Below, piece after piece: positions 40,014 to 50,345 of a stretch of DNA of 64,000 bases. The position numbers were made by a program, and so were the translations under genes. Origin of the DNA: Myrmaecium sp. VS I D KN 1 (taxonomy: Eukaryota > Ascomycota > Dothideomycetes > Valsariales > Valsariaceae); contig JADQAV010000064.1 of assembly GCA_019775845.1 (NCBI GenBank), positions 62,001 to 126,000 on the forward strand. Reading direction: 5' to 3'. How positions within the stretch are numbered: position 1 is the stretch's first letter; every line of letters starts with the position of its first letter. A model generated the notes under the pieces. The model ran no database searches. It worked only from the letters and a program-made list of their open reading frames with translations, and was not told the DNA's origin.

Positions 40014-40401
40014 GGGAATTACTATATATATATATATAAGCTTTACTAGAAAATATAATCTTATTAAATTAATCTTAATAATAGGAAACCTAGGGCCTAA
40101 CCTTATTAGATATAGCTTTTACCACCTTTCGCAGCTCGCAGGCCCCCCTCCTTTAGGCCCTCTCTCTCTTACAGGCGCTTTTACAGGCTTACTCGCAGGC
40201 CCTCTTGCCGGCTCACTCGTAAGCTCTTATACGCGCACTTATAAGCTCTTACAGGCCCTTTTATAAGTACTTTTATAGGTACTTTTCTAGAGGTTCCTCA
40301 CCGGCCCTATAATTTAATAGGGTCTTAGCGGACCTTAGAAAAGATCGATCTAATAAGATTATCTTTTCTAGTAAAACCTATATATATAAATAGTAACTCC
40401 C
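40014..40401. mobile_element. Short inverted-repeat element (hAT-like MITE), copy a
   Basis: About 388 bp. The ends are inverted repeats of about 60 bp: left GGGAATTACTATATATATAT, right (reverse complement) GGGAGTTACTATTTATATAT. They continue into an ACTAGAAAA.ATAATCTTATTA segment on both sides. The flanks TAAATTAA and TTAGTTAG agree at five of eight positions, two of the differences being G/A, so they may be a decayed 8-bp target duplication. There is no room for a transposase. The core (40,130-40,300) is GC-rich with repeated CTCGCAGGCCC / CTTACAGGC motifs. Confidence 0.72.
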
Positions 40402-46438: not shown

Positions 46439-46844
46439 TATTAAACAGGATAGAGCGAACTAAGTATATAAAGAGTTATAAAATATTTAGAGGAGTATCT
46501 TATAGGTAATAAATCAGCCCTAGTCTATTTATCATTCTAGTAGTTATCTAGATTACTTAGATAGTATAAGGGCTAGACTTCTAGTTTTTTATAGAGTTTT
46601 CTATTAATTTAAAATTAACTTAGTAGAACTAGTTAGCTAGTTCTGGGCCTAAGTCTGGGCTCTAGTTAATATTAAATTATCTAAGTCTAGGCCTTAGTTA
46701 ACCTAATCATCTAATTCTGGGCCCCGGTTGGTTCTATATCAGCAAGTTCCTTACCTTAATTTCTGGCATATTATAACCATTTTATAGTGCCTTTGTTTGG
46801 TGGTTTTAATATTATAACCATATTATAATGCCTTAGCTTTGACA
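46439..46844 (-). repeat. Copia-family LTR copy 4 (3' LTR of the minus-strand copia remnant)
   Basis: About 406 bp; on the minus strand it begins TGTCAAAGCTAAGGCATTAT and ends CCTGTTTAATA. Just outside its start, on the minus strand, lies the purine tract CCTTAAGGGGTG (46,845-46,856), the expected position of a polypurine tract before a 3' LTR. Compared with copies 1 and 2 it carries about 40 extra bases near the start, a partial internal duplication. Confidence 0.75.
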
Positions 46845-46858
46845 CACCCCTTAAGGTT

Positions 46859-47060
46859 TATAGTATTAGTTATTTCTTTTTAATAGTAATTATTTATATA
46901 TTCTATCTTATAACAGTAATCATCTGTCTGTTATTATTAAATATGATTTTATATCTATTATAATCTTATAACAGCGATTATTTATCTGTTGACTTTATAA
47001 TAGTAATTATATATCCATTATAATCTTATAATAGCGATTATTCATCTGTTATATTCTATC
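46859..47060. repeat. Degenerate tandem repeat, CTTATAACAGCGATTATT type
   Basis: About four imperfect copies of a unit near 40-60 bp, containing TCTTATAACAG(C/T)(G/A)ATTAT and ATCTGTT. It lies between the polypurine tract and the MITE of the copia remnant. Confidence 0.6.
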
Positions 47061-47075
47061 CCCGATAATTTATAA

Positions 47076-47588
47076 GAGAATTACTATTTATAGAGGCGGG
47101 TTTTGCTAGCAGCAGAGGCTATCTTATCTAATTATCTTATCGATAAGATGGAACACTAAATCCAGTGCCAGTTTTAAGACTCGCTCGAAGGTCTTCAGGC
47201 TCTCACACAGGCCCTTACGCAGGCCCTCACGTAGGCTCTCACGCAGGTCCTCTTGCAGGTCCTCTCGCAGGTGCCCTCGCCCTTTAGTAGCTCCGGTCTT
47301 CCTACCTGCGTGAGGGCCTGCGTGAGGGCCTGTGTAAGGACAGCCCCTAAGGTATCGTAGGCTCGCTCGCAGGAGGCTTACTTATAGGAGGCTTGCTTGC
47401 AGGAGGCTCGCTCTTAGGCCCCCTCGCAGGCCCGGTTACAGGCTCTCTTTTAAGCCCTCAGAGTGCCCTTAGCAGGCCCCCCTACAGAGCGCTCGCAGGC
47501 TTATTTAGTATTTAATCTAATCGATAAACTAATTATATAAGATAGTCTCTGCTGCTAGTAAAACCGGCCTCTGTAAATAGTAATTCTC
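47076..47588. mobile_element. Short inverted-repeat element (hAT-like MITE), copy c, GC-rich core, perfect 8-bp target duplication
   Basis: 513 bp with inverted ends of about 70 bp: left GAGAATTACTATTTATAGAG, right reverse complement GAGAATTACTATTTACAGAG, both continuing through GCAGCAGAG. It is flanked on both sides by ATTTATAA (47,068-47,075 and 47,589-47,596), the 8-bp duplication of hAT elements. The core (47,160-47,505) is strikingly GC-rich, with many copies of CTCACGCAGGC/CTCGCAGG in both orientations, and is full of CpA, unlike all surrounding DNA. No transposase. Confidence 0.93.
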
Positions 47589-48126
47589 ATTTATAAAGAT
47601 TTTAGTTTTTAACTTATCTAGCCCTTTTATAAATAAATCAGCTGTCTGTTCTGCCGTTAGAATATACTTTAGGCTTATAAAACCTGATAACACGTAATCC
47701 CTAGCTATATAATACTATATATCTATATATTTAGATCTAGTGTGGTATTTAGGGGTTTTTACTAATTCTATTACTACTTCTATATATATCTAGTTATTTA
47801 AGTAAAATAGCTAGCTATATATATTCTTTTATAGCCTCTTTTAATACTATATATTCGGCTTTATAGATTAATAGGGCTACCGATTTTCATAGGGTGCTAG
47901 GCCAGCTTATTAGATATTTATTTCCTTATAGAAATAAATAGCTAGTAGTGCTTTTTCTAGTTATATAATCACCCCCCTACTCTGAATTAGTATAGCCGAT
48001 TAGATTAAGATTAAGTGATTTAGAGTATTTATATACTAGCCCTAATTTCTTTAGTACTATTTAGATACTTCTAAATGCGGTATAGTGCCCTCTAGTGATT
48101 TTTATCTATATTTACCATATATCTAG

Positions 48127-48206
48127 TGCATTACAACCACCTGATAGTGCCTCTATTTAGTGGTTTTAATTTATTATAACTATATTATAATGCCTTATTT
48201 TTGACA
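48127..48206 (-). repeat. 80-bp repeat with TG...CA ends inside the copia remnant
   Basis: On the minus strand it reads TGTCAAAAATAAGGCATTAT through to GTTGTAATGCA. It closely matches the first 81 bases of LTR copy 4 (46,764-46,844). It interrupts the copia polymerase region. It could be a fragment of an LTR end or a tiny mobile unit; no clean target duplication is seen. Confidence 0.6.
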
Positions 48207-48583
48207 GTGATTTACTACCTGCTAAATACTCCTCTAGATATTATACTATATATCTTAACCTATAGATCTCTTATCTAATAAGTATAAGTAAACATCTAAG
48301 TATATTCAGCTATCTTAATATAATCTAATAGTTTCTTCTCTATTATTATATAATATTAGTAGTTCAGGTACCTTATGAATTATTTAGTAATAACCTTTAA
48401 TTTTAATAGAATTTAGAGAAATAACGGCTTTATATATTAATCCCTGTTCTAATCCTTAAGATTACTATTATAATTACTTTTATACTAATTAAACCTGCTC
48501 TTCTAATAACTTTAATCCTAAATATAGCTATAATAATAGTCTATAGAAGTTTATAGTTTATCGAGATTTACCTGATATTATAA

Positions 48584-50345
48584 GAAGTACTATTTGCAGA
48601 GGTAAGTTTCCTAAGCGGTAGAGGCTATCTTATCCTATCGCCTTATTAATAAGATTAAATACTAAAATATTATATATTAAGAATCCGCTATACTATTACT
48701 CTTATTAGCTATATCGCTCTATAATATCTTTTAAGCGCCCTATATAGGCTCTTAAAACTACTTTCTATATTACTTATAGGCGTCTAAATAGATATACTAC
48801 CTCTAGGTCCTTATATAGACCGCCAGGAAGCCTTATAGGCTATTAAGAACTAGGTAAAGGCTTATAGTTATAGTATTATAATAAATAATAGGGATGTCTA
48901 GAGTAAAATATTCAGATTTCAGATAAGGATACGTAGATTATTAATAGAGTATATATTAAATATAGTAGAGGCTCTATATATAATTTAGTTACTATATACC
49001 GCTAGATAAATATATATAAAAAGACGATCCTTTAAAATAGTAATTAAGTATATTAAGGAGGGGTATACTTTCTAGCTAGTTAAGATAATTAAAGCTGCCT
49101 ATAACTATTACTAGTATATATAAATATAGCTCTACTAGCCTACCGTATACTATTAAGCGATAATAAGAAGTTAATATATATTCTTTTAGCTATAAAAGTA
49201 ACGCCTAGATAGATATAGACTATCCTAATATTATAATAGCTAATATATATAAGTATAATAAGATACTATAGATATATAAAGAGTTATTAAATAGCCTTAT
49301 ACTAACTTAATCCTTCTAGCTAACTCTTTAAGAGTAGGAAAAATAATACTCTAAATACTAGTATATATTTAAATAGTGTAGTAATAATAACTATATTAAT
49401 TATCTCTTCTAGGCTTATCTAAGCTCTATTAAGCTCCTTAAGTAGTATCCTAATCTCCTTCTTATTAACAGTATATATAAGATAAACTACTATAATATAC
49501 CTCTTATCTATATAACTAGTTTTATATAAGGCCTTATATTTAATATAGCGTACGCGCTTATTATTAGGGAAAATAAAATAAACTATACTTTATTTATAAC
49601 TTATCGAGGGGCCCTTTAGTAATAAATACTATATAAAAGCCGCGTTTCTCAGTTATAAATAAGAAGAGGGCCTTAAAGAACGCCTATAAAAGTAGTAAGT
49701 ACTTCTAATTAGGACCTTAGTTATATTAATAGTATACTAGATATCTTCTGAATTATAGATAGCTAGAGTAGGAAGTACTAGGATTATAAAAAGGGCCTAT
49801 TAAGTAAGGAGGAGAAGAAGGAGCTTTAATAAAAATATTAGGAATCTAATATTAAATAGAAGACGCTAATAGAGTTAAAGTTAAAAACTAACTTTAATAC
49901 TTAATAGTAAATGCTTAAAGATAACTATTTAATATAGATTATTCTATTAATATATCTATAGAAAGAGTAACTAGATAAGTAGAAGAAAAGTTTATTAACT
50001 TCTAAATTAGCTATAGTATTATAGTATAAAGTGAATTCTAGTCTCCTAGTATTAAGTTAAACGCTTTTAATAACTATACTATAAGACTACTTATACTAAT
50101 AAAAGTACTTATACTTATTCTAAGATATATCTAAATAGCGTAAAGGGCGATCTTCTCTTAGTTATAAAAGTTATTTATATTAAGATAGTTTTTACTAATA
50201 TACTTAATAATATTACACCTATTAACCTAGTATACTCTAGAAATAAATAAGGGATATAGTTAGGAATACTTCTACTATCTCCTAATATAATTAGACTAGT
50301 ATTTAGCTATACTAAGACTAGAACTAGTATTAAATAATTAATTCT
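48584..50345. mobile_element. Left end of a hAT-like element of the same MITE family; remainder unassigned
   Basis: The sequence GAAGTACTATTTGCAGAGG at 48,584, then GAGGCTATCTTATCCTATCG, matches the terminal repeat of MITE copy c. I could not find the matching right end before the AT block stops at about 50,345. The intervening 1.7 kb is RIP-degraded, larger than a MITE, and without readable domains. It might be a decayed longer relative, or a MITE that lost one end. Confidence 0.4.

Follow-up and report, generated by a model that had tools for sequence, protein, structure and literature searches.

The window analysed here (64,000 bp) comprises positions 62001-126000 of contig C53 in a genome of 25.66 Mb and 66 contigs. 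Between gene-rich stretches it carries an AT-rich block (24-50 kb) with a GC content of 0.25-0.34 per kb, rising to 0.395 in the kilobase that holds a 513 bp element at 47076-47588. One protein encoded in the window was compared with known proteins; the top match, at 68%, is from Aspergillus floccosus, and nearly all named sources among the 120 best matches listed are ascomycetes. How a GC-rich element came to lie in DNA so heavily degraded by RIP, and where its repetitive core came from, are the questions raised by this locus.

The element, designated family A, has inverted ends of 86 bp each (87% identity), or 91 nt at 86% identity if neighbouring bases are counted in. The original prediction had correctly recognised inverted ends, at a shorter length of about 70 bp, together with the perfect 8 bp duplications on either side. 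The core (47162-47502) has a GC content of 0.61, compared to 0.28 and 0.26 in the left and right flanks, and is built of tandem 12 bp units in both orientations, each a constant CGCAGGC followed by a five-base spacer. Two oppositely oriented stretches of the core form a 36 nt stem, and when folded as single-stranded DNA the core outperformed all of 100 shuffled versions (z −3.1), in agreement with the predicted GC-rich core of motif copies in both orientations that could form hairpins. A Foldback element was ruled out, as the tandem units lie in mixed orientation inside the 86 bp ends, whereas in Foldback it is the ends themselves that hold the repeats. No RNA families were found over 46500-48200. 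The features of the element and its relatives are given in Table 1.

Table 1. Features of the family A element in the window, its flanks, further two-ended family A elements, and the other families of ends.
Feature	Position	Strand	Remarks
Left flank, dispersed RIP-degraded host repeat	46470..47075	.	78 or more matches at E<=1e-10, counting itself
Left target-site duplication, ATTTATAA, 8 bp	47068..47075	.	identical copy on the right; empty sites in paralogues
Left terminal inverted repeat, 86 bp, starts GAGAATTACTATTTATAGAGGCGGG	47076..47161	+	nine further matching places, spread over eight other contigs
12 bp unit array, plus orientation, CTCACGCAGGCC type	47196..47280	+	TRF period 12
Array units, minus orientation	47304..47339	-	36 nt stem with 47213-47248, 92% complementary
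Second plus-orientation block, 15 and 12 bp units, GCTCGCTCGCAGG type	47353..47450	+
Right terminal inverted repeat, 86 bp	47503..47588	-
Right target-site duplication, ATTTATAA	47589..47596	.
Right flank, RIP-degraded remnant resembling Ty1/Copia, with an RNase H-like stretch	47597..48700	-	translation with X at stops; paralogues
A element, 469 bp	contig C10		duplication TAGAATGT twice
A element, 397 bp	contig C2		duplication 7/8
A element, 1,198 bp	contig C24		duplication TTATTATT
A element, 4,024 bp	contig C12		duplication TAATATAT
A element, 777 bp	contig C29		no clean duplication
A element, 3,650 bp	contig C34		no clean duplication
Family B, ends GGAAATTGATAATCGTACAACCCC			8 bp duplication
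Family F, B-like ends			8 bp duplication
Family C, ends TACGGAATAC			5 bp duplications TCTTG, TCCTC, CCGCG
Family D, ends GGACGAACCTAAGGAGCACC			8 bp duplication

The minus-strand frame of the right flank, with X at stops, reads LIGYTNSEXGGDYITRKSTTSYLFL, then ...YKAEYIVLKEAIKEY, which we take to be a Ty1/Copia RNase H. A Pfam scan of the flank frames, again with X at stops, found no family. The host thus resembles what is left of a Ty1/Copia element: of the RIP-degraded retroelement described originally, the RIP decay is clear, and the retroelement identity is suggested by this frame. Three paralogues of the host repeat were fetched. Those on contigs C9 and C34 match the two flanks of the element as one continuous sequence, at identities of 76% (523 bp) and 74% (634 bp), with a single diverged copy of the target at the junction, and the alignment of the third, on contig C42, ends just past that point. 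Since two of the three copies read through the site without an insert, the element represents a precise insertion.

The same AT-rich block contains possible traces of other inverted-repeat elements. A single degenerate family A end (74% identity to the left terminal repeat) lies at 48583-48666. An island of RIP-worn CAGGCCCTC...CAGGC repeats at 40130-40330, 7 kb from the element, is bracketed by a 52 nt, 87% inverted pair (40025-40076/40341-40392), and is perhaps an older array-bearing element. A 79 nt inverted repeat of 91% identity with 620 nt between its arms (44313-44391/45012-45090), whose arms have 28 nt in common with the more internal portion of the family A end, is possibly another MITE-like element.

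The two RIP indices of the core give different pictures. The ratio (CpA+TpG)/(ApC+GpT) is 1.18 in the core, 0.41 and 0.25 in the left and right flanks, and 1.11 and 1.19 in gene regions of the window, so by this index the core is spared; TpA/ApT is 9.0 (18:2) in the core, 1.5 in the flanks and 0.62-0.63 in the gene regions, and by this index the core has been touched. The description of the element as RIP-spared therefore holds relative to its host, with a CpA-based index clearly apart from that of the flanks, but not in absolute terms. Seven of its 21 CAGG/CCTG-type sites read TAGG/CCTA (14 are kept). Against A2, picked as reference because it is the least changed relative, the whole element has six CpA and five TpG changed to TpA and none in the opposite direction (11/11 in the RIP direction). 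Transitions from GC to AT number 28 and those from AT to GC eight, and there are 20 transversions. Its left and right terminal repeats are distinguished from each other not by transitions alone but also by transversions, so the element is not very young.

Other copies vary widely in the fraction of changed sites (TAGG/CCTA among all CAGG/CCTG/TAGG/CCTA sites). Among family A copies this ranged from 0/22 in A2, through 5/17 (A3), 7/24 (A5) and 18/30 (A7), to 20/29 in A4 (1,198 bp) and 11/13 in A8, a 298 bp remnant; in copy C5 of family C, 36 of 36 sites were changed. In family B and C copies with GC-rich surroundings, copy C5 apart, the fraction was 0.22-0.56, so that some TAGG-type sites are perhaps old or not due to RIP. 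Across 33 copies, ten with flanks shorter than 1,000 bases (about 110 in B4-B8), the changed fraction was weakly related to flank GC (Spearman −0.33, p 0.06).

Insertion after the main RIP of the host is most likely, as one of the two originally proposed histories had it: the paralogues with empty sites are RIPed, and the core is far less altered than the host around it. The element probably took some mild RIP-type change afterwards; this order is inferred and undated. The other proposed history, that the element is older than the RIP of its host and was passed over as being below the RIP length, appears improbable. Zymoseptoria MITEs are considered short enough to escape RIP (PMC9970103), and those of Fusarium poae were treated as lying under the RIP length threshold (PMC4994206), but the window element itself carries RIP-type change, and short copies in other AT-rich blocks, such as A8, are heavily changed. 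Protection by size is superfluous here and fails as a general rule: judging by A8 and A4, shortness alone gives no protection, though leakage from RIPed neighbours may account for their changes. In Z. tritici and F. poae, MITEs are likewise short, non-autonomous and less RIP-marked than other elements (PMC9970103, PMC4994206); the parts of these descriptions available to us mention no array core across families, and the element described here is partly RIPed.

Within this one genome the copies range from nearly unaffected to completely RIPed, a natural series that could show at what point RIP acts on short elements and if a 12 bp array makes a good or a poor target for it. In Neurospora, RIP was able to recognise homologous trinucleotides recurring every 11 or 12 bp, while in a second experimental setting a 10 bp period was best and 11-15 bp had little effect (PMC4858203).

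A genome search with the family A ends gave 15 matches, belonging to the window element and the nine other places noted in Table 1, in line with the expectation that further copies exist; of the refuting conditions proposed originally, those on further copies and on empty sites were thus both decided in favour of the element. Besides the six further two-ended elements, these comprise single ends on contigs C34, C7 and C42. The window element resembles a MITE in its 86 bp ends, its flanking ATTTATAA copies and empty sites, and in being, at 513 bp, too small for a transposase. MITEs usually form many copies of uniform size, whereas family A occurs at ten places in total and its two-ended elements range from 397 to 4,024 bp, and for this reason it is termed MITE-like.

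A search with the whole element also reached places with other ends (families B, C, D, F and G). The strict array pattern CRYAGGCYYTYDCRYAGGCY had 82 matches in the genome and none in the reversed control, and every one of the 82 lies inside one of 26 copies in the catalogue (A 5, B 6, C 5, D 6, F 1, G 3), so the arrays it detects are not ordinary gene minisatellites. Both ends are present in 20 of these 26 copies, the incomplete or undelimited ones being B10, C5, D7 and G1-G3. The original prediction rightly considered such a motif core unusual for a MITE; the occurrence of the same array in transposons with unrelated ends lay outside its view. A looser heptamer pattern gave 112 matches (seven in the control); of the 100 matches listed, 84 are accounted for by 23 catalogued copies, and of the remaining 16, which lie elsewhere, 11 have other spacers (mostly 6 bp repeats), two belong to an array beside B2 with undelimited ends, and three are array-type matches on contigs C10 and C35. 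With up to three mismatches there were 276 matches against 33 in the control. Among the first 100 of these, which were listed, a slightly different unit was seen on contigs C17 and C25 and in one match on C10, and three places, on contigs C5, C8 and C10, all have D-type ends, with the left end partly cut off on contig C5 and an exact 8 bp duplication on contig C8.

Since the arrays had themselves served to find many of the copies, their presence was recounted from end searches only (22 genome-wide matches for B, 10 for C and 12 for D). An array was present at 7/10 places for A, at 11/11 of the places read (13 in all) for B, 5/5 for C and 7/8 for D, and in all three of B6-B8, copies missing from the listed array matches. 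The family A places without one are A6 and the single ends on contigs C7 and C42, and for family D it is a stretch on contig C66, of which 6.2 kb was covered; in A4 and A8 the array is RIP-worn, and in D6 it has only three units. Apart from A4 (0.1), A7 (0.5) and A6 (0.0), the catalogued copies have 0.6-3.6 units per 100 bp, compared with 0.07-0.14 in three other stretches of the window.

Similarity between the families extends beyond the array unit. BLAST matches at E<1e-5 were found between elements of all 15 family pairs and none with reversed sequences; the comparison used whole elements, so part of the B-F matches are ends. Non-tandem stretches are shared between G1 and C3 copies (55 bp at 93%) and between A5 and G1 (53 bp at 75%), and variants of ACGGCTCTACCAGAGCC were seen in A5 and C1 and in six members of family B. 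That independent minisatellites arose by chance in several transposons is therefore hard to credit at all: minisatellites derived from transposons are common (PMC9659126), but here one unit is found throughout (82 matches against none in the control) and non-tandem stretches are shared too. When 878 matching 60 bp windows (ends included) were compared, the best match was in the same family for 711 and in another for 87, with 80 ties, indicating that cores mostly travel with their ends, the exceptions being chiefly A5, A7, G1 and D3, and that any exchange is old or rare. Family F, which has no second member, contributed 22 of the 87; with F left out, 65 of 856 matching windows fit another family better.

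Target-site duplications are perfect in 19 of 27 catalogued copies (A 4/7, B 7/9, F 1/1, C 3/4, D 4/6), only D5 requiring an end to be shifted by one base. They match at 7/8 positions in A3, B7 and D4 and are poor in five copies (A5, A7, B9, C2 and D6). Outside the 27 stand G1-G3, C5, A8, B10 and D7, as well as B11 and D8-D10; exact duplications are also present in B11 and D9. G1 and G2 match each other far beyond the array, and no clean ends or duplication were found for them.

The ends were compared by local alignment of their outer 60 bp, counting the shuffles, out of 500, that scored at least as well. Family A ends were no closer to those of C, D and G than chance would give (406, 469 and 275 shuffles); the values for A-B and A-F were 75 and 127, that for B-F was 0, and those for C-D and F-C were 14 and 28. 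B and F are one group. In the outermost 16 bases, family A agrees at 13 with a B copy on contig C11, and B11 on contig C24, flanked by TAATATAA on both sides, has A-like outermost bases followed by B-like ones. A, B and F are thus best taken as one superfamily. Families C and D look separate, with the C-D value borderline, giving at least three kinds of ends.

We consider that a MITE-like family A element inserted into a RIPed Ty1/Copia-like remnant and was later mildly RIPed, and that its core is homologous across the families and was passed between them by template switching, a reading given a probability of about 0.62. In outline, a non-autonomous cut-and-paste element of family A would have inserted, with an 8 bp duplication, into the already degraded remnant, and mild RIP would have followed. 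A gap or break in a transposon may have been repaired on the template of an element that carried the array but belonged to a different family, with the 12 bp units supplying the homology for template switching, so that the core was carried over. Each family would then have multiplied with its own version of the array, mobilised in trans by transposases that were encoded by genes since lost or RIPed. What the sequences show directly is the insertion, the further copies, the common core and the differing ends; the passage of the core and the mobilisation in trans are inferred, and the template switch is put forward by analogy with chimeric Galileo copies (PMC3573991). Because A and B/F share a terminal motif and B11 is intermediate, part of the core sharing may be due to descent.

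Descent could be extended to all families, with one ancestral array-bearing element that kept its core as its ends diverged or gave way to others. The likeness of A, B, F and B11 in their terminal bases, and the fact that most windows are closest within their own family, agree with this, but the duplication is 5 bp in C and 8 bp in the others, and the C, D and G ends have no similarity to A, making such a common origin rather improbable. Alternatively, the array could be a selfish module, a parasite of parasites that moves between unrelated cut-and-paste frames by self-seeded conversion, in which case transposons of different superfamilies would all be dispersing the same passenger; this is conceivable, though we doubt it.

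The array might also be a cis-acting platform, its CGCAGGC units bound by a transposon or host protein and kept as an aid to transposition. The heptamer is constant while the spacer varies, units occur in both orientations, and neighbouring units of the same orientation are predominantly 12 bp apart (n=167, the next most frequent distance being 24 bp with n=27). TNPA binds the subterminal repeats of En/Spm. In soybean CACTA elements, direct and inverted subterminal motifs are bound by TNPA-like proteins (PMC2613891), and the authors of the coral CMITE study propose a role in transposition for a conserved interior (PMC2872659). The orientation pattern differs between families, however, A6 and two single A ends are without arrays, a candidate binding protein was not found, and subterminal motifs vary widely among CACTA elements (PMC2613891), so that such a role seems unlikely.

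The nearest precedent found for a core shared between families is that of the CMITE families of Acropora corals, which have different terminal inverted repeats and a common interior more conserved than the ends, shared within one superfamily. CMITEs are about 100 bp long with a 75-base shared interior, TTAA duplications and a retained piggyBac terminal motif; the origin of the interior was unknown to the authors, who state that MITE families as a rule differ in their interiors (PMC2872659). Here too, a common interior lies behind different ends. The ends are of three or more unrelated types and are flanked by duplications of 8 or 5 bp, the interior is a 12 bp array, and neither a TTAA duplication nor the CC[C/T]T terminal motif is present, so the elements are not CMITEs. 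Galileo, a Foldback-like transposon of Drosophila mojavensis, has internal tandem repeats and chimeric copies carrying the interior of another subfamily, attributed to ectopic recombination and conversion (PMC3573991); there, subfamilies of a single transposon with 7 bp duplications have exchanged interiors, whereas the families here have unrelated ends. The oyster elements CvA, CvE and CvG and other Helitron-like elements resemble ours in having satellite-like tandem repeats in mid-element, but theirs belong to Helitrons and Helentrons (PMC11136912), while those described here have terminal inverted repeats and duplications. Among open-licence PMC papers, no report was found of this array, or of an array core common to kinds of ends with different duplication lengths. 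One interior behind several kinds of ends suggests that transposon families may swap their interiors, and clustering by similarity when a repeat library is built could wrongly fuse such families.

Superfamily membership was approached through duplications and transposase traces. The hAT duplication is 8 bp with the consensus nTnnnnAn, that of Zisupton (KDZ superfamily) is also 8 bp, and that of PIF/Harbinger is 3 bp. The length of the family A, B and F duplications fits hAT, and the consensus fits four of their 12 perfect duplications, which falls short of an assignment. A genome search for the hAT domain (PF05699) gave two stop-bearing relics, at C9:65872-66027 and C5:65237-65359 (contigs), neither between catalogued ends. 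The interior of A6, with X at stops, matched no Pfam family; that of A7, in a frame with X at stops, has a sub-threshold DDE_Tnp_4 stretch (E 3e-4), and a whole-genome search with PF13359 found one relic, with stops, at C61:4010-4450. Family A was not assigned to PIF/Harbinger, as its duplications are 8 bp and DDE_Tnp_4 traces are confined to A7 and contig C61. A genome search with PF18758 (KDZ) gave no match, nor did the control genomes. No autonomous source was found in these searches, only transposase relics, none convincingly tied to catalogued ends.

On contig C66, inverted family D ends lie 13.76 kb apart (G000:C66:1676863-1690625), with flanks GCTATCCG and GCTGTCCG that agree at 7/8 positions. 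This stretch is possibly a large, RIPed and once autonomous D element; there was no Pfam match in 5 kb of it (L063), and an array was likewise absent from the 6.2 kb covered.

Nesting was observed at two other places. In stretch L033 (3670-5990), a nest of array-bearing elements includes copy C1 within a larger element whose ends resemble those of family A, and B2 adjoins another CCTGCGAAAAG array. In stretch L042 (3940-5070), a family D element is nested in an element with terminal inverted repeats of GGGAAACACTATGTG, flanked by GAGGCGCG, that has GCCT tandem repeats of its own.
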